Of a DNA stretch of 40,428 nucleotides, positions 1-33,868 are shown piece by piece. The stretch is from IMG/VR virus record IMGVR_UViG_3300042565_001438, positions 1-40,428 of that record; one strand, 5' to 3'. The notes beneath the pieces were generated by a model. The model worked only from the letters and a program-made list of their open reading frames with translations. It was not told the DNA's origin and ran no database searches. The DNA is from a virus. Numbering within the stretch: position 1 is the first letter of the stretch; the number at the start of each line of letters is the position of its first letter. The translations under genes were made by a program, and so were the position numbers.

Positions 1-949
1 GGATGGGATGCCTTTGAACTGGCGGCTGTCGAAGCGAAGGAACGCCAGGGCGCTGTTGGGATACCTGAACTTTTCGTCAATGATCTCGGTGTAGCTGAAC
101 CAGAACGTGCGGTTCTGCCGGCGGGCGCTTGACTCATCAGCGCTGATGCGCTCCAACCTGATGTCAACCGGAAACGCACCGCTCAGGCTGATGATGTAGT
201 CCCGCTGATAGGCGTTGGTGGTCTTGCCGCTGATCGTGTCCTCAAACATGGTCGTGTAACCACCGCCGTTGTACTGCACCCTGCAGCGGATGCTGACCTC
301 GTGACCAACGATGTCACCGTCATCCTCGATGATCTGCAGCGCTGGCACCTGCACCGTGATGCGGGCGCGGTCCACATCCGAGTCAGTGATCTGCCGGGTG
401 ACAGATGCAGCAGCCGTGATCTCGACGTTGACGGCTTTCTCGGATTCAGTGCCGTTGGCGTCTGGGATGTAGCTCTGCGCCTGCGTGCCAGTACGGGTGA
501 CGACGGTGTAACCAGTGAAGTTGTCAATGCCACCTGCGCTCTGGACTGGCGTCCCATCCAAGTAGATGCCTTGCACACCGTTCTCGATGCCTTGGATCTC
601 ACCCTCGCTGATCAGGTCAAGGACGCTGGCAAATTGGACTGACTGCAGGCTGTCGTCAGCCTCTGATGGGACGTGGGTTGTACCACCGCCACCTTTGCCG
701 CCACCGCCGCCACCTGCGCCCTGCAGCACGCCAAGGCCAGCGTTATGGACGCGGATCCCGCCAGCGATGAAGGTATGGTGCCCCTCGACGGTCAGGTTGT
801 AGACGGTGCCAGCAGGTAGCTCTTCACGGCTAACGATGGGACGCAGGTGATTGTTCTCGTCCACCAAGCAGTCATCAGCGCCAAGGCTGCCGATCGCAAC
901 GAAGGCATTGAACTGGTTCAGCACCCAGTGATTCGGGGTTGCATCCAGT
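1..949. repeat. Left copy of terminal overlap (about 90% identical to 39480-40428)
   Basis: Bases 1-949 align without gaps to 39480-40428 (constant offset 39479). I count roughly 90 substitutions by eye, mostly silent, then an exact 99-base match (851-949 with 40330-40428) that ends at the last base of the window. The pattern suggests a circular or permuted genome assembled through a region where two strains differ, with a k-mer-sized exact overlap at the contig end. Confidence 0.85.
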
Positions 950-1176
950 GACGCGCCGCCCCAAAGCTGGTAGCGATAGACGCGTTCGTTCAGGTGCTCA
1001 TGCACCTTCAGGATCGTCGCCTCGTGCAGCGTGCCCTTGTCGTCAAAGCTCAGGACTTGATCGCCAGCCTGCAGCTCATCAATGCGATGCTGCCCGTCAG
1101 GCGTGCGCACCAACGTGTGCCCTAGGAAGCATCCGCCGCCACCACCGCCACCACCGGAACCTTGAAGCTGCGTCAT
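1..1176 (-). CDS. Tail tip / host-specificity protein J, N-terminal part with Hint domain (runs off window edge)
   Basis: This is the N-terminal 392 codons of a lambda J-like tail tip protein, the central fibre that contacts the host receptor. It starts at an ATG that overlaps the stop of the tail protein I gene (ATGA), which suggests coupled translation. Residues 1-15 are a short glycine-rich leader. Residues 16-145 are an intein-like Hint domain. The J protein proper resumes at residue 146 with a second glycine-rich stretch and the family-typical segment SVLDLISEGEIQG. The reading frame is open at base 1. The right end of the window carries a second allele of this part plus the rest of the gene, so the full protein would be about 1245 residues across the junction. 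The J-family call is based on position and on the ISEGEI region. Confidence 0.9.
   Translation of the reverse strand, partial: MTQLQGSGGGGGGGGCFLGHTLVRTPDGQHRIDELQAGDQVLSFDDKGTLHEATILKVHEHLNERVYRYQLWGGASLDATPNHWVLNQFNAFVAIGSLGADDCLVDENNHLRPIVSREELPAGTVYNLTVEGHHTFIAGGIRVHNAGLGVLQGAGGGGGGKGGGGTTHVPSEADDSLQSVQFASVLDLISEGEIQGIENGVQGIYLDGTPVQSAGGIDNFTGYTVVTRTGTQAQSYIPDANGTESEKAVNVEITAAASVTRQITDSDVDRARITVQVPALQIIEDDGDIVGHEVSIRCRVQYNGGGYTTMFEDTISGKTTNAYQRDYIISLSGAFPVDIRLERISADESSARRQNRTFWFSYTEIIDEKFRYPNSALAFLRFDSRQFKGIPS
742..1131 (-). other. Hint (mini-intein / bacterial intein-like) domain within the J-like protein
   Basis: Residues Cys16 to Asn145 (130 aa) have the Hint blocks in order. Block A starts CFLGHTLVRTPDG and continues IDELQAGDQVLS. 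Block B is DATPNH (Thr80, His83). Block F is YNLTVEGHHTF followed by GGIRVHN (His144, Asn145). There is no room for a homing endonuclease. The residue after Asn145 is Ala, not the Cys, Ser or Thr that standard splicing needs. This fits an A-type bacterial intein-like domain, or one that only cleaves. Both flanks are poly-glycine, so excision would leave a continuous glycine-rich N-terminus on the tail protein. The second allele at the right end, bases 40221 to 40428, has the same block F. Confidence 0.88.
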
Positions 1177-3443: not shown

Positions 3444-3784
3444 TAGGGCTCGAACACTTGGCGGAAGGTGGCGTCGATCTTGCTGCGCTGGAACTCGAAG
3501 AGTTCGCGGGTCCAGCTATCACAGACCCACTTGTAGCTGGTGTTGCCGTCGGGCGGGGTCCAGTCGAAGGCTTGGGAGTCGGCAGCGCGGGCGTTAAGAA
3601 ATGTTTCGACCTCGTTGGCCTCGGTGTCGGTGAGGTTGAAGCTCACGGTCCACTCTTTGGGGTCTTGGTTGAGGCCGTAGGTGAGGCGTTGTTCGTAGCC
3701 ATCGCCGAAACGCACCACGCGCTTGTTGGGTTCGCTGCGTTTGGTGGCCGAGTAGTTCGGGTTGTAGGCGGGGAAGGTGGCCAT
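3443..3784 (-). CDS. Minor tail protein M (lambda gpM-like)
   Basis: This 113-residue protein matches the phage minor tail protein M family in length and in features: RVVRFGDGYEQRL near residue 25, a central WTVSFNLTD strand, and a C-terminal segment TFRQVFEP. It forms part of the tip ring at the distal end of the tape measure. The gene lies directly after the tape measure gene. Its first codon overlaps the tape measure stop (TAATG), and its own stop overlaps the start of L in the same way, so the three genes appear translationally coupled. Confidence 0.9.
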   Translation of the reverse strand: MATFPAYNPNYSATKRSEPNKRVVRFGDGYEQRLTYGLNQDPKEWTVSFNLTDTEANEVETFLNARAADSQAFDWTPPDGNTSYKWVCDSWTRELFEFQRSKIDATFRQVFEP

Positions 3785-6393
3785 TAGCGAGTACTGGCGA
3801 GAAGGCCGCCTGGGCGTTGTTGTTTGACGAGTTCGGCTTGGACTGCGGCCGAGATGACGCGTCCCAGCTGGTTGGCGTTGGGGCTGTCGCCTTGTACTGT
3901 ACTGCCGCTTGCGTCGACATTTACGACGACGTTTGTTGTCCCACTGAGAGCGTGGTTCGGGACGATGGTGCCGCTGCTGCGAGGCACGAAGAGTTCGGGG
4001 CCGCGTTCGCCGACCATGTAGGTCGAACCAGAAGCGACGGGGCCGCCGGCTGCGCGGGCACCACCGAAAGCCCCTACTGAGAAGGAAGGGCCGCCAGCAC
4101 CGAAGAAACTGCTGAAGTTATCGACGCCTCTAGGGAAGATGGTGCTTCCGCCGGGCAGCAGACTTTGTGCCAGGCCGAGGATTTGCATCTGGATCCACTT
4201 GGAGATCATCTGGGCTGCCATATCGGCAAAGTGGTCGGCTATCGACTGGAAGAAGTTGGCTAAGGCTTCTTGGGCGGTCATCGTGCCAGTGATGACGCCT
4301 TTCAGCGAGGTGCCGAAAGCGTCACCAATGCTCTTGGCGGCTTGAATTACTTGATTCTCAACTTTTACGAGTTCTTCTAGTTCGGTTTTAAGTAGTGCAA
4401 ACTGTTCACCGATGACACCGTTGGTCAAGCCGGGCATCAAGTTGATGTCTGTGCGGAAAGCTCCAGCGCCTCCGGCTGCACCGGGTGCATTACCGAACGC
4501 GGATTCCCGTGCCTGTTTGGCCGCATTACTAATACTTTCTGTAAGTCCAAAACGTTCAAAATAAAGTTGATTTTTACGTCGCTGTGCCTGTTGTTCTTCT
4601 ATATCGTTTTGTCTTTGCAGTAGATCAAGCCGTGATTTATACAGAATGTTTATTAGAAAAATTTCCGCTTTTGTATCCGCTGCCAATAACGCTGCTTTTT
4701 TATCTGCATTTAGTGCTTTTAATCTAGTTTCATTTAGTTCATCTTGCTTACTAAGTTGAACTTCTAGAGCAGCTTCCTCGCCTTTAGCTAGTGTTTGTTG
4801 TTCTAGATAGGCTTTTGTTTGTTGATCAAACAAATTTAAGATCTGACTTTCGAGTGTCAGCGCCTTTATTTCTTCTTGGATGCGTTTGTCATCGGCTTGT
4901 TTCCGGGCTCGCTGAGCTTCTTCAGTTCTTCTGCGTATTTCTTCTACTCTGGAACGTTCAATTTCACCTAACTGTATAGATAATTTTAGGTTAGCTCCGC
5001 GAATAAGTTGTTCATTTTGGGCTAGATTGATTTCTTTATTTTTAAGCTGAATACTAATTTTTGTTAGCTCATTTTCATATTCTTTCTGTGCTGTCTGTCT
5101 TTGTAGCGTTACGTATCTATCTAAATCGGTTTTTGCGCTAACTGTTGTAAGGGCAAGTTGCACACGCAGAAGTTCATTTGAGCGTGTAAGTTCGGCTGTA
5201 CGCTGCGTAGCGGCTGCTGTCTCGGCCGGTGTTGCTGCATTAGGTGCAGGTCTAAATTGTTGCGGCAGTAGATCCATAACGGATCCACCGGGGCCAAATT
5301 TTGCTTCTTGGAAAAATTTATTGGATGCATAACCAGCACCTATAAATCTATCAATAAGCAAACTTAGTGATCTGTTTGCCTGTTCGGACTGTTTACCTAT
5401 TTCTAAGAAAGCGCTGGCGCCCTCTGTTCCCATAGTTTTGGCTAGTTCAGAAAAAGCCAGTTCGGCAGCTTTTGCTGTCTGTCCTGATGCTTGTAAATTC
5501 TGTAGTTGCGTTTTTATGACCGGATTTAAGTAACCGATACGCTGCTCTAAGTAAGAGGCAGCATCTCCACCTTCCCGTAAAGATTTAGCAAAATCTCTAG
5601 CGGATTGAATTGTTTGATCCAGTGAAGCGCCTACTGCTGTACCAACGAGGGACAATCCAAAACCGAATTGACCGCCAGCCATACCACCGGCAAAACCACC
5701 GATACCGCCGCCTACAGATGCGCCAAGGCCTTGACCGAACAGTAGTGGAAATGCACCACCAATAATCGCATTACTTGTTGCCTCACGAGTTTGTGTCTGT
5801 TGTTTTGCGCGTGCTGCGTTGCGTTCGCGGATTACACTCAAACGTCGCTCGAAATCTTCTGCTCTTTTTTGCTGCATAAATTCTGCAGCAGCAAGCTCGC
5901 GTTGTTGGCGTAAACGCCCGCTTTGGATAGTATTTATACGGCGATAATACTCAAAGTCACGTTCTGCTTGCGGCTGTAAACCTTTTGCGGTTCGCGCAAG
6001 GTCATTTTGAGCCGCAGAAAGTCGAGTAGCCTGTTTCTCGGCTTCAGCAAGAGCATTGGCGTACAGTTTTACCGACGCTGACTGTTTTTCGTAACCGCCT
6101 GCAGCTACTTTTACGTTCTCTAGGACGGTGCGGAATACGTTTGCTTGTTGGACTGCACCAGCAAAAGTATTGGAGATTTGTTTATTACCATTCTGTATGC
6201 TGCGAGCAAAATCGTTTATTGGTTTTATCGCTAGGCGAATTGAGTCGCCCAGCTTTCCGCCGCCAGGTGCAAGTAAATTTAGCGGTTTTAGATTTTGACT
6301 TAAGTTATTTAAACGTTCGACGGAAGCTGTTACTGCGTTCAGGCGCGACGCACCAGCAACAGTGATGTTGATGTTGGCGTTGTAGTTGGCCAC
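3784..6393 (-). CDS. Tape measure protein
   Basis: This is an 869-residue protein, the longest complete ORF of the tail module and in the usual place after the G/GT chaperones. The N-terminal part is helical and Gln/Ala-rich. Residues of about 205-260 are a glycine-rich hydrophobic patch (GGAFPLLFGQGLGASVGGG), typical of tape measures. Long charged helices with many KQ/RR/EE runs follow, then a C-terminal region with GGPVASGSTYMVGERGPELF, a conserved motif of this class. It sets tail length and probably passes the membrane during DNA entry. The start is a GTG (no better codon nearby), downstream of a terminator and a TACACT -10 box. Bases from about 4500 to 6380 are clearly AT-richer than the neighbouring genes. 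Confidence 0.93.
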   Translation of the reverse strand: MANYNANINITVAGASRLNAVTASVERLNNLSQNLKPLNLLAPGGGKLGDSIRLAIKPINDFARSIQNGNKQISNTFAGAVQQANVFRTVLENVKVAAGGYEKQSASVKLYANALAEAEKQATRLSAAQNDLARTAKGLQPQAERDFEYYRRINTIQSGRLRQQRELAAAEFMQQKRAEDFERRLSVIRERNAARAKQQTQTREATSNAIIGGAFPLLFGQGLGASVGGGIGGFAGGMAGGQFGFGLSLVGTAVGASLDQTIQSARDFAKSLREGGDAASYLEQRIGYLNPVIKTQLQNLQASGQTAKAAELAFSELAKTMGTEGASAFLEIGKQSEQANRSLSLLIDRFIGAGYASNKFFQEAKFGPGGSVMDLLPQQFRPAPNAATPAETAAATQRTAELTRSNELLRVQLALTTVSAKTDLDRYVTLQRQTAQKEYENELTKISIQLKNKEINLAQNEQLIRGANLKLSIQLGEIERSRVEEIRRRTEEAQRARKQADDKRIQEEIKALTLESQILNLFDQQTKAYLEQQTLAKGEEAALEVQLSKQDELNETRLKALNADKKAALLAADTKAEIFLINILYKSRLDLLQRQNDIEEQQAQRRKNQLYFERFGLTESISNAAKQARESAFGNAPGAAGGAGAFRTDINLMPGLTNGVIGEQFALLKTELEELVKVENQVIQAAKSIGDAFGTSLKGVITGTMTAQEALANFFQSIADHFADMAAQMISKWIQMQILGLAQSLLPGGSTIFPRGVDNFSSFFGAGGPSFSVGAFGGARAAGGPVASGSTYMVGERGPELFVPRSSGTIVPNHALSGTTNVVVNVDASGSTVQGDSPNANQLGRVISAAVQAELVKQQRPGGLLASTR

Positions 6394-6455: not shown

Positions 6456-6971
6456 GTTTGGCTTTGTCTAGCTCTTTTTGTTGGTCCTCGTTGAGGATCT
6501 GGAAGTAAGCGCTCCAGCCGATCAGTTCTTCGGCGGTCATTGAGGCGCGGACCTCGCGCAGGGATTTGCCTAGCTCTTTGGCGACTCCGAACTGGAGCAT
6601 GAGCCAGTTGTCCTTGCGGAGTTCGGCGCTCAGCTCTTTGGGTCGATGGGCTCGGCGTCGTCGGTGATGATGGCCAGCATCAGGGCTTGGAGGTCCTTAT
6701 CCTTGACTTCGTTCTTGAGGACATCGATCTCGCCTGCGCTGAAGAGTTTGGTGCCGGATTCGTCCAGGGCTTTGGTGATAAGCAGCTGGAGGGCGAAGGC
6801 GTTGGCGTCGTCGGACTTGGCCTGCTTTTGGGCGCGTTCGCGCTCGGCCATGGTCAGGGGAGTGACCCACAGCTCGAAGGTGGTGCCGTCCGAGAGATCG
6901 ACGGTTTTTTTGACGGGCTCCAGGTTGGCGGCCTTGCGGAGGCGGTCAATGGCGCGGACTGGAACTGGCAT
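6445..6971 (-). CDS. Tail assembly chaperone GT, produced by -1 frameshift
   Basis: The short product G ends at 6630. A ribosome that slips one base back at the heptamer CCCAAAG (6642 to 6636) continues for 66 codons to the TAA at 6447-6445. The extension contains MTAEELIGWSAYFQILNEDQ and ends in a basic tail, as expected of the T part. G and GT are made in a fixed ratio and chaperone the tape measure before tube polymerisation. Frame conservation, length and position between the tube and tape measure genes all agree. No alternative start for a separate T protein is evident before the overlap. Confidence 0.85.
6630..6971 (-). CDS. Tail assembly chaperone G
   Basis: This 113-residue, acidic and helical protein has a strand-rich start (KTVDLSDGTTFELWVTPLTM) and then a charged helix ERERAQKQAKSDDANAF, typical of siphovirus tail assembly chaperones. 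It binds the tape measure protein and recruits tube subunits. The zero-frame stop lies three bases past a perfect -1 slippery heptamer, so the longer GT form is made by frameshifting. It is preceded by the tail-tube terminator and a TACACT promoter box, which lets the chaperone and tape measure be expressed separately from the tube gene. Confidence 0.88.
   Translation of the reverse strand: MPVPVRAIDRLRKAANLEPVKKTVDLSDGTTFELWVTPLTMAERERAQKQAKSDDANAFALQLLITKALDESGTKLFSAGEIDVLKNEVKDKDLQALMLAIITDDAEPIDPKS
6636..6642 (-). other. -1 slippery heptamer CCCAAAG
   Basis: On the minus strand the zero-frame codons are GAC CCA AAG AGC TGA, giving the X XXY YYZ heptamer C CCA AAG. Slipping gives CCC AAA and enters the open T frame. 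Confidence 0.88.
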
Positions 6972-31554: not shown

Positions 31555-32676
31555 TCAGGCGGGGCGGATTTGCAGGAGCCAGCCGGAATCGGGGCCGTCG
31601 ACGAGCCAGCGAGGGAGCCAGTTCTTGCGGGAGTATGCGACACCGGCGCCGCCTTTATTGCTTATGTAGCCACCTTTTACGAGGTCGGCCTCTCCGTTGG
31701 GGTCGTTCTGGATGAAGTGTGTCGGCGTGAAACCAGTGGCCACGCTCCAGTGACCAGAGCCGCTCGGAGCAGATACAGGACCGCGGTGGAGCCAGCCGAC
31801 TGGGGTGGGGTGGCCGTTTTTGAGTTCTTCCTCCAGGGTGGCAGCAGTCGCATCTTGGATGAAGGTGGCTTTTAGGCCGAGGGAGCGGAGAGCGCCGAGC
31901 TGGGCGTTGACGTCGGTGGTGTCGCCGTACTTGCGGCGGATCACGTTATAGGAATCGTCATTGCCGATGCGGCCCCAGTAGCGGGCAACCATGGCGCAGC
32001 TGGAACTGAAACACTCGCGGTAGCCGGTGCCGCTTTTGTTGTCGAGCTGGTATTCGTAAGGAACTTTTAAGGTGTGCGCTCCAGGGGTTTCGATTGCTGG
32101 GGAGTTTTGGCTCATCAGTTTGATGAGTTTTTCGGGGTAGTTAGGGTCGGTGGCGTAGCCCTGTTTGTGGAGCATACGGGCGGCGTCTTCGCGGGTTTCT
32201 GCGTTGTTGACGCCTTTGAAGGTTTTGAAGTCTTTGTACCAGTGGTCGACTAGATAACAGACGCAGGTCTGGATGTCGGGGAAGTCGATGAAGGAGTCAG
32301 TGATCGTGACCCATTGGTTATTGAGAAATTCTTGAGTTGTGGTGGCGGTTCCATCGCCTTTGAGGCCGAAGAAGTTATTGCGGCCTGAGACGGCAGTGCC
32401 GTGGCTGGATTCCAAGGCCCACTGGGCTGCCACCAGTTCGGGGAATTTGGCGCCGGCGATGCGGGCGGCTTTGGTGATGCCGCTCCAGTCGTTGGCGACG
32501 GCGAGGATTTTGCCGCTCTGGCTCCAGGTCTTGAACCAGGCTTGGTTGCGGCCGAGGATGTGCGGGTTGCACTTGTTGATGGCTTCCTCCAGTTCTTGGA
32601 GGGCGGCCATCTGGTGCGGGAGGGCGCGGTAAAACCGGCAGATGTCCAGCAGACGGATGGTGTTGGAGTTAGTCAC
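31555..32676 (-). CDS. Bifunctional endolysin: glucosaminidase-like plus C39-like peptidase
   Basis: This 373-residue protein has two lytic domains. Residues of about 60-195 match a GH73 / FlgJ-type glucosaminidase (AAQWALESSHGTAVSGRNNF with its Glu, then ITDSFIDFPDIQTCVCYLVD). Residues 200-373 match a C39-like cysteine peptidase: YRECFSSSCAMVARYWGRIG with the active-site Cys, GHWSVATGF with His, and QNDPNGEADLV with Asp. It should cut both glycan and peptide bonds of peptidoglycan. There is no signal peptide, so release likely depends on a holin. The GTG start overlaps the stop of the frameshift extension upstream (GTGACTAA). Confidence 0.85.
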   Translation of the reverse strand: MTNSNTIRLLDICRFYRALPHQMAALQELEEAINKCNPHILGRNQAWFKTWSQSGKILAVANDWSGITKAARIAGAKFPELVAAQWALESSHGTAVSGRNNFFGLKGDGTATTTQEFLNNQWVTITDSFIDFPDIQTCVCYLVDHWYKDFKTFKGVNNAETREDAARMLHKQGYATDPNYPEKLIKLMSQNSPAIETPGAHTLKVPYEYQLDNKSGTGYRECFSSSCAMVARYWGRIGNDDSYNVIRRKYGDTTDVNAQLGALRSLGLKATFIQDATAATLEEELKNGHPTPVGWLHRGPVSAPSGSGHWSVATGFTPTHFIQNDPNGEADLVKGGYISNKGGAGVAYSRKNWLPRWLVDGPDSGWLLQIRPA

Positions 32677-33009
32677 GGCGCCAGGGGGCGTGGATGGACA
32701 TGGGGCCGCCGAGCTTCTGTGACTCTCCAGTCTGCAGCTCGGTATCTATGGGGTGGTCAACGATCGTGGGTGAAACTGTGTTTGGCGGTTGGCTGGCGTG
32801 CCAGTGTTTGATTTCCGCGTCGATGTTGCCCCGGATCTTGCGTTCCAGGGCAGGCGTGTCGATGCGGGTCAGCGCTTTTTTGCTTTGAGCAGATTGAGGA
32901 TCTGGAAGACCAGCTGGATGATGCTGTTGCTCTTGAGGGGAGACAGGGCAATCAGCTCGGAGGCGGCTGCCACGACGATCCAGAAGGCGGGGTGGGACAG
33001 GAAGTCCAT
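32669..33009 (-). CDS. Predicted -1 frameshift fusion of holin-like protein
   Basis: If ribosomes slip at AAAAAAG (32881 to 32875), translation leaves the 46-residue frame after KAKK and continues for 68 codons (starting ALTRIDTPALERKIRGNID) to the TAA at 32671-32669. This makes a 113-residue membrane-anchored protein with a charged tail. No ATG or GTG in the extension frame precedes this region in a useful place; a CTG overlapping the stop is an alternative. The fused tail is hydrophilic and ends HAPWRRD, four bases inside the endolysin start. The product is predicted only. Confidence 0.5.
32869..33009 (-). CDS. Small holin-like membrane protein
   Basis: This 46-residue protein has the pattern MDFLSHPAFWIVVAAASELI followed by a second hydrophobic helix (IIQLVFQILNLL) and a basic end (KAKKR). 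It resembles short cyanophage proteins placed before endolysins that are thought to be holins. It would form pores or make the membrane permeable at lysis. It lies 193 bases before the endolysin, with an ORF between them in the -1 frame that is reached by slippage. Confidence 0.68.
   Translation of the reverse strand: MDFLSHPAFWIVVAAASELIALSPLKSNSIIQLVFQILNLLKAKKR
32875..32881 (-). other. -1 slippery heptamer AAAAAAG
   Basis: On the minus strand the zero-frame codons are GCA AAA AAG CGC TGA, giving A AAA AAG, the same heptamer as in E. coli dnaX. Slipping opens a 68-codon frame. Confidence 0.6.
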
Positions 33010-33111: not shown

Positions 33112-33420
33112 GTGGACTACATCGACGAGCAACACGGGTTTGTTCGTAAACGCGAGGCTAAGGCAAGGTTTAGAGAACAGATTTTTAAGGGCTGGGACTA
33201 CAAGTGTGCGTATTGCCGCGAGCACTTGGGGAAGTCTGGGACGCTCGATCACATACGTCCCAAGTCGAAGGGAGGGGAGACGGTGCCGTCGAATCTGGTG
33301 GCGTGTTGTCTGTCGTGCAATACGCGGAAGAGTTCCAGCGAATGGACGGACTGGTTCAGGATGCAGGAGTTTTGGGAGCCGCATCTGGAGGATGCGATCC
33401 AGTGGTGGATTGGTCAGTGA
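33112..33420 (+). CDS. HNH endonuclease
   Basis: The product has 102 residues from a GTG. It shows the HNH fold with zinc cysteines: YKCAYCREHLGKSGTLDHIR has the first CxxC and the DH pair, then PKSKGG, then NLVACCLSCNTRKSS has the second CxxC and the Asn. It could be a free-standing homing endonuclease or act with packaging. It is on the opposite strand to its neighbours inside the lysis region, which suggests insertion. It lies in a divergent gap with no clear promoter. Confidence 0.88.
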   Translation: MDYIDEQHGFVRKREAKARFREQIFKGWDYKCAYCREHLGKSGTLDHIRPKSKGGETVPSNLVACCLSCNTRKSSSEWTDWFRMQEFWEPHLEDAIQWWIGQ

Positions 33421-33602
33421 TGTTGCCGGTGAGGTGGGAGCCAGCCCATTGACTCGGCGTACATCATGCAGATGTAGTGATCTTCAGCATATCTACAGAT
33501 TCCGCGGAGGCAGACGCGGTAATAGGTGTGGCCGTGGTCGTTTTGGAGTTGGTCCAGGGTGAAGCCTTGGCCGAGGTCTTCGGTGGTGATTACGTTGGAC
33601 AT
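33414..33602 (-). CDS. Small hypothetical protein
   Basis: The product has 62 residues, with a beta-like front (ITTEDLGQGFTLDQLQNDHG) and a Cys/Tyr/His-rich end (YRVCLRGICRYAEDHYICMM). It is not recognised. It converges with the HNH gene by seven bases and overlaps the end of the membrane-coiled-coil gene by 13. Confidence 0.6.
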   Translation of the reverse strand: MSNVITTEDLGQGFTLDQLQNDHGHTYYRVCLRGICRYAEDHYICMMYAESMGWLPPHRQHH

Positions 33603-33847
33603 TGGGGTGAGCGCGATTCGAGGGCGGTTACGCGCTGTTCCACATGATTTAAGCGGCCGAAGGTCTCTCTGCGGTCGGACTTGATGTCTGTGTGTAGGAC
33701 TTCTAACTGAGTGGCGATGTGTTCGACGGCTGCGGTAAGGCGGATGACGGCATCGCGGGCTTCATCGCTGCGGCGCGAGAAGCCCATGGCACCCATAGCT
33801 GCTACGGATATGGAGGCGCCAGCGATGGCCGCGATTAGTTCAATCAT
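33590..33847 (-). CDS. Membrane-anchored coiled-coil protein (XhlA-like topology)
   Basis: This 85-residue protein has one N-terminal membrane segment (MIELIAAIAGASISVAAMGA) followed by a long heptad-rich helix (TAAVEHIATQLEVLHTDIKS, then NHVEQRVTALES). That is the layout of XhlA-like or spanin-like accessory lysis proteins, but no strict family match can be claimed. I chose the ATG at 33847. An upstream GTG would put the start on the promoter box at 33869-33874. Confidence 0.65.
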   Translation of the reverse strand: MIELIAAIAGASISVAAMGAMGFSRRSDEARDAVIRLTAAVEHIATQLEVLHTDIKSDRRETFGRLNHVEQRVTALESRSPQCPT

Positions 33848-33868
33848 GGCAGCGATGGCTACCACTCA

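Follow-up and report, generated by a model that had tools for sequence, protein, structure and literature searches.

A small gene beside the endolysin gene of this phage is predicted to give rise, by -1 programmed frameshifting, to a short and a long form of a lysis-region membrane protein, and this reading, which rests on sequence comparison, is assigned a probability of about 0.88. The window analyzed was an IMG/VR viral record in full (40,428 bases), and the gene is located on its minus strand. Two products of 46 and 113 residues had been foreseen in the original prediction, and they now have strong comparative support from the coupling of the slippery heptamer to the tail, purifying selection, a downstream hairpin, and the lack of a usable start codon for the tail.

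The 0-frame ORF (32869..33009, minus strand) was characterized by its translation, a match to phrog_22542, and an AF2 model, and it encodes a small hydrophobic, holin-like protein of 46 residues, MDFLSHPAFWIVVAAASELIALSPLKSNSIIQLVFQILNLLKAKKR. It ends with the codons GCA AAA AAG CGC TGA (32883..32869, minus strand), in which the slippery heptamer A AAA AAG (32875..32881, minus strand) is read in the 0 frame, with a single sense codon between it and the TGA stop at 32869..32871 (minus strand). The site had been reported at 32869-32885 and its heptamer described as being in the correct frame; the site and the frame were both borne out by reading on the minus strand, but the span was 2 nt too long and the strand had not been stated. 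From the heptamer, the -1 frame (the tail, 32672..32875, minus strand) is open for 68 codons, as had been claimed, contains a conserved C-terminal domain (...LQTGxSxxLGGxMSIxAPW), and is closed by TAA at 32671..32669 (minus strand). It does not end exactly at the start of the endolysin gene but overlaps that ORF by 8 nt. The endolysin (31555..32676, minus strand) has glucosaminidase and C39-like peptidase domains and a GTG start at 32676. The predicted fusion is 113 residues in length (45 + 68). The A6G motif occurs 8 times in the window, compared to an expectation of 4.1, and since it is not rare, a function for it is demonstrable by comparison only.

Relatives were identified using tblastn with the predicted 113-residue fusion as the query. 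The second half of the protein was found in the -1 frame in the cultured phages S-CBS3, S-CBS1, S-EIVl, and KBS-S-2A, and also in the T7-like phages WH11-B, 7B11-B, and S-B28. Scans of IMG/VR produced 111 loci with the query from the window and 80 loci with the query from S-B28. A AAA AAG was present in 112 of the first 120 loci, directly abutting the 0-frame stop or separated from it by one codon, and the other eight had A AAA AAC (2), A AAG AAG (2), G GGA AAG (1), GGG AAA AAG (1, the non-representative locus L112), or no heptamer (2). The ranking of most loci of the second set (L131-L202) used only the N-terminal part, so that the tail played no role in their selection; A AAA AAG was present in 61 of these 72. 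Each set was thinned at 85% nucleotide identity, which left 71 representatives, including a few near-duplicate pairs between the sets. A homologous tail was encoded in 65 of the 71, and a heptamer of the form X XXY YYZ was kept together with the open -1 frame in 64 of these 65 (A AAA AAG in 62; G GGA AAG in S-EIVl and A AAA AAC, one each), the exception being L027 with A AAG AAG. None of the six tail-less representatives (L005, L118, L156, L183, L192, and L204) had the heptamer. Comparison thus shows the putative slip site and the predicted tail to be kept, or absent, together. The Lys-Lys pair at the site is written AAA AAG in 62 of 66 cases, compared to approximately 50:50 usage of AAA and AAG for Lys elsewhere in these genes, and the codon preceding the pair ends in A in 66 of 66. 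The codons of the predicted heptamer are fixed although the amino acids allow others, as under synonymous constraint. The alignment of related phages that had been suggested as a check was favorable, and none of the findings that would have spoken against the original prediction, namely a broken heptamer, an interrupted -1 frame, or a conserved independent start, was encountered. Occurrence of the heptamer by chance was excluded by its conservation together with the tail, and a sequencing error splitting a single ORF was excluded by the presence of the same layout in more than 150 contigs and seven cultured phages.

Several variations of the site were observed among the relatives. In phages resembling MedDCM-S37-C6 (L005, L156, L158, L165-L167, L169, L174, L183, L191, and L194), the same short protein is encoded, CCA AAG AAA/G CAG replaces the heptamer, and a homologous tail is lacking; judged by these features, the group is a natural frameshift-less comparison group. 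Both the MedDCM-like and the P60-like relatives manage without the frameshift tail. In many relatives, among them L016, L017, L020, and L029, the stop is preceded by AAAAAAGGGC, where the first slip heptamer is followed by another one in frame, A AAG GGC, that overlaps it. A scan of genome contigs returned relatives in only three MAG contigs, and therefore no clear cyanobacterial prophage.

The tail has the properties of a coding sequence in the -1 frame. Its median dN/dS in that frame was 0.11 (350 pairs), compared to 0.09 for the 0-frame ORF, third positions held 63% of its differences, and the tails were alike across siphoviruses and T7-like phages. By this comparison, the predicted tail is shown to be under protein-coding (purifying) selection in the -1 frame. 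The two halves of the fusion were modeled separately and not as a single 113-residue chain. The model of the tail consisted of a helix followed by a small strand-helix-strand unit (pLDDT 88), and a Foldseek search with it returned the S-PM2 protein Q5GQH8 (E 0.008, probability 1.00). Profile alignment with hhalign matched the tail to the C-terminus of the same protein (E 2.7e-7, probability 93%). Q5GQH8 belongs to phrog_3316 (S-PM2 GC 852), which is encoded by a single ORF in T4-like cyanophages and has a Lys-rich N-terminus, one hydrophobic segment, and then the shared domain. The phrog_3316 gene adjoins wall hydrolase genes in S-B68, MA01, DSL-LC03, and DSL-LC02 but not in S-CREM1. The domain is therefore carried by two unlike membrane anchors and tends to be encoded near lysis genes. 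Application of the positive-inside rule suggests that the T4-like proteins would export it. Comparison of the tail with the PDB gave no known fold at E < 1, and a match to Colicin B (E = 1.2) was dismissed as noise. S-SSM4 CYXG_00090 and P-HM1 PHM1_175 were considered as further homologs; each has the short C-terminal motif only (hhalign probability 5.7 for P-HM1), and homology is therefore not claimed.

A stem-loop is predicted at 32815..32867 (minus strand), separated from the 3' end of the heptamer by a 7-nt spacer, on the basis of folding and of compensatory changes in L012-L015. A 58-nt stretch of the window folded at -27.8 kcal/mol (z = -5.0), and none of 200 shuffled sequences was as stable; a search for such a structure had been proposed with the original prediction, as had one for an upstream Shine-Dalgarno stimulator, of which the 24 nt preceding the heptamer showed no sign. 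The pairing of the stem is kept by paired changes, with TGCCCTGG..CCGGGGCA in the window corresponding to TGCTCTGG..CCAGAGCA in L012. Folding z scores were approximately 0 upstream of the site and peaked just after it (mean -3.18 for 100 nt from +6 in 42 representatives). The stability exceeded that of dinucleotide shuffles as well as of synonymous-codon shuffles; against shuffles that kept both the tail protein and its codon usage, the mean z was -2.37 and the value was negative in 95% of 39, although the sequences are related and nominal P values therefore overstate independence. It follows that the need to encode the tail protein does not account for the structure, and comparison shows the predicted hairpin to be selected beyond the codons. 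The hairpin was assessed by pairing counts for named structures. It was able to pair in 84% of cells, compared to 27-47% for slid versions (44 ungapped sequences). The outer helix is able to pair in two registers, and for the alternative register, in which this helix is shifted, 39 two-sided changes were counted versus 22.9 in shuffled data (0/500). Covariation relative to shuffles was mixed between the two registers, and RNAalifold on A2 returned part of the hairpin but not the long form, so the claim made here is that a propensity for strong stem formation is conserved, and not that one exact structure is. Folding was weaker in marine relatives, with a mean z of -1.8 at +6 and a further low of -2.3 at +60. 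A search for Rfam motifs returned none.

The short protein matched phrog_22542 strongly and phrog_15106 weakly, both of which are unnamed, and gave no match to a holin family in PHROGs, Pfam, or NCBIfam. Its AF2 model contained two short helices at residues 7-22 and 29-45 (pLDDT 80). The single Met of the window protein is at the N-terminus (MDFL..), and the dual-start pattern of two in-frame starts a few codons apart is absent from it. For the short protein, the basic KAKK sequence at the end points to a cytoplasmic C-terminus. Neither the fusion nor the tail gave a spanin (Rz/Rz1) match; in the T4-like relatives, an N-terminal anchor and a number of Cys residues are present. A conserved partner gene encoding 91 residues, with an N-terminal hydrophobic segment and a coiled-coil-like region (phrog_26178), is located upstream at 33590..33865 (minus strand), and a partner of the same coiled-coil type precedes the gene in S-CBS3 (gp20), KBS (06), S-B28 (gp06), and P60 (gp38). 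The coiled-coil partner showed weak, sub-threshold similarity to hemolysin/XhlA-like proteins, and no similarity to XhlB was found. An HNH endonuclease gene (33112-33420, plus strand) splits the coiled-coil gene from the frameshift gene in the window; the two are adjacent in relatives, and in S-CBS3 the HNH gene follows the endolysin instead. Across the whole set, the endolysin gene comes next in 164 tail-bearing siphovirus loci. The frameshift gene of T7-like cyanophages is flanked by the tail-fibre gene and TerS, the place taken in T7 by holin gene 17.5. Comparison shows this placement, beside the endolysin or between tail fibre and TerS, to be constant for the predicted frameshift gene.

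Explanations in which the frame is not changed by the ribosome were weighed against these data. The tail might be a separate small gene with a start of its own, perhaps a non-canonical CTG, at which ribosomes would reinitiate after terminating at the 0-frame stop. This reading could draw on the CTG that overlaps the stop (as CTGA) in many relatives as well as the window, together with the internal starts assigned to the tail by the annotators of S-CBS3 (gp22), S-EIVl (AHV82131), and S-CBS1 (gp23). However, those annotated starts fall within the conserved tail, the CTG becomes CTA in relatives ending in TAG and is absent where TAA or TAG directly follows AAG, and the fixed AAA AAG codons and the hairpin would be left unexplained. 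In 31 of 39 representatives, moreover, the stretch from 20 codons before to 15 codons after the junction contained no ATG, GTG, or TTG, and none was present in the whole tail of L017, L111, and L026; the only such codon in the tail of the window is an ATG located 57 codons in. The earlier statement that the tail has no credible start of its own agrees with these counts, comparison shows a usable tail start to be absent from the predicted frameshift genes, and a separately initiated tail is regarded as very improbable. Slippage of RNA polymerase on the A run would likewise change the frame without the ribosome, and A-run slippage of this kind, for which 6-7 A residues are available at the site, is a known mechanism (PMC5009743). 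The run is short, however, and transcriptional realignment needs neither a stop directly after the site nor a hairpin at ribosomal spacing. Since the variants G GGA AAG and A AAA AAC keep the tandem-slip pattern and not the length of the A run, ribosomal slippage is favored, and a transcriptional origin of the frame change is hardly credible.

Other explanations accept the frameshift or the gene and differ as to its purpose. In most loci, the end of the tail overlaps the start of the next gene by 4-59 nt, as it does by 8 nt in the window, and the main purpose of a real frameshift could therefore be the delivery of ribosomes to the endolysin start, with the tail itself incidental; translational coupling of this kind was once proposed for MS2 lysis. 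An incidental tail is at odds with its strong purifying selection and with the homologous, separately encoded domain in T4-like phages, overlaps are general in phage operons, and in S-EIVl the tail is present though the downstream neighbors are on the opposite strand. Coupling as the main purpose is accordingly thought improbable, and coupling to the endolysin may be an added effect of the frameshift. It is somewhat easier to suppose, though still unlikely, that the gene is not a lysis gene and encodes, for example, a virion or membrane-remodeling protein that is near the endolysin by chance. No functional family was matched, and there is no adjacent wall hydrolase in S-EIVl, nor beside the domain or motif in S-CREM1, P-HM1, and S-SSM4. 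Against this stand the conserved placement of the gene (next to the endolysin gene in the siphoviruses, flanked by tail fibre and TerS in the T7-like phages), the same type of coiled-coil partner upstream, and the wall hydrolases that adjoin the T4-like relatives in the four phages named above. A lysis role for the gene, which is based on its position and on the company kept by the homologous tail domain, is considered well supported.

The site was compared with described systems, and its type is very likely that of the -1 frameshifts of dnaX, IS3, and lambda G-GT. It is like E. coli dnaX in its A AAA AAG heptamer, the stem-loop after a short spacer, and the two forms with a common N-terminus, and unlike dnaX in that the frameshifted form is the long one here and the short one in dnaX. 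The gene described here is also a phage gene with no visible Shine-Dalgarno stimulator and an unrelated protein product. The lambda-type heptamer is G GGA AAG, the variant present in S-EIVl. In the -1 frameshift of the tail assembly chaperones G/GT of tailed phages (Xu et al. 2004, as cited by PMC3556154 and PMC10885494), a C-terminal domain is likewise added, in that case upstream of the tape measure gene and not in the lysis region. The same phage has a G/GT-type site of its own at 6642-6636 (minus strand), where ORF 6971..6630 has an in-frame C CCA AAG, separated from its TGA by a single sense codon, and the -1 frame is open for 63 more codons; the tape measure gene is downstream at 3784-6393. 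Dual-start holin/antiholin pairs, such as lambda S and SPP1 24.1/24.1* and 26/26* (PMC6316719), are similar in that one gene close to the endolysin yields a small membrane protein in two forms. Those pairs differ at the N-terminus by choice of start, whereas the forms predicted here differ at the C-terminus, by approximately 70 residues, through the reading frame, and by analogy frameshifting may stand in place of dual starts. The two-component holin XhlA/XhlB of PBSX, and SPP1 gp24.1/gp26 (PMC6316719), resembles the present arrangement in having two small proteins by the endolysin, one a coiled coil and one a predicted helical hairpin, and differs in that only the sub-threshold similarity to XhlA/hemolysin, and none to XhlB, was seen here. 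The phrog_3316 proteins have the homologous C-terminal domain, a membrane anchor, and frequently a place beside wall hydrolases, but they are read from a single unbroken ORF, with no frameshift, and their N-terminal anchor is a different one, rich in Lys. Finally, phrog_15106 (P60 gp39, S-CBP1) has the same hydrophobic core, SEVIGASKLKENS in P60, where gp39 follows the coiled-coil protein and precedes TerS; it has a short in-frame C-terminal extension and neither heptamer nor tail domain.

In the literature searched, phage frameshifts were found in tail chaperone and other genes, and dual-start holins were described. In PMC10885494, lysins are named, with no particulars given, as genes in which frameshifts are known, and the early proposal for MS2 is mentioned again; these are different genes. 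The original prediction knew of no described case. In the full-text literature searched, which lacks most subscription papers so that absence is no proof, neither holins nor other membrane proteins of lysis were described as products of frameshifting, nor was any frameshift reported for cyanophage lysis.

Elsewhere in the window, a direct repeat of about 950 nt (90.8% identical) was observed at the contig ends (1-949 and 39480-40428), over the start of a large tail gene, and could be a true second copy, the result of mixed strains, or an assembly join. The tail gene at 1..1176 (minus strand) encodes a Gly-run, then CFLGHTLVRTPDGQHRIDELQAGD..TVYNLTVEGHHTFIAGGIRVHN, and then another Gly-run, and from this sequence its protein has a predicted Hint/intein-like domain. 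The copy at the other contig end gave Pfam intein-splicing and PT-HINT matches below the cut-off.

In the mechanism that we infer, which includes slippage itself and its efficiency, most ribosomes would terminate at the 0-frame stop and so make the small hydrophobic protein, the 46-residue form in the window. The downstream hairpin would pause a fraction of ribosomes with two lysyl-tRNAs on A AAA AAG, and these would slip back one base and append the conserved domain of approximately 70 residues. The resulting long form of 113 residues would have a membrane anchor identical to that of the short form. The short form might act with the upstream coiled-coil protein as a holin or holin subunit, an assignment for which the chances are about even. 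The tail domain would tune lysis, either in its timing or through contact with the wall-degrading machinery, and it is tentatively proposed that the long form is a regulator that tunes the short form or links it to that machinery. The fuller picture, in which lysis in a large and widely distributed group of picocyanobacterial phages would be set by a frameshift-fixed ratio of a short pore-former to a long form that restrains or directs it, a holin/regulator pair arising from recoding and not from dual starts, using a domain that stands alone in T4-like cyanophages, is likewise offered as a conjecture that is somewhat doubtful.

Tail chaperone genes and insertion sequences are the well-known places for phage -1 frameshifting, and the literature searched gave no instance for a lysis-region membrane gene. 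The phages concerned infect Synechococcus in fresh and marine water, and their lysis genes are almost unannotated. The comparison provides an annotation correction for S-CBS3, S-CBS1, S-EIVl, KBS-S-2A, S-B28, WH11-B, and 7B11-B, in which the tail was missed (KBS-S-2A and the T7-like records) or mis-started, and allows a conserved lysis-associated domain to be recognized that these phages share with T4-like cyanophages. If confirmed, the frameshift would give these phages a genetically fixed ratio of short to long forms of a membrane protein encoded beside the endolysin.
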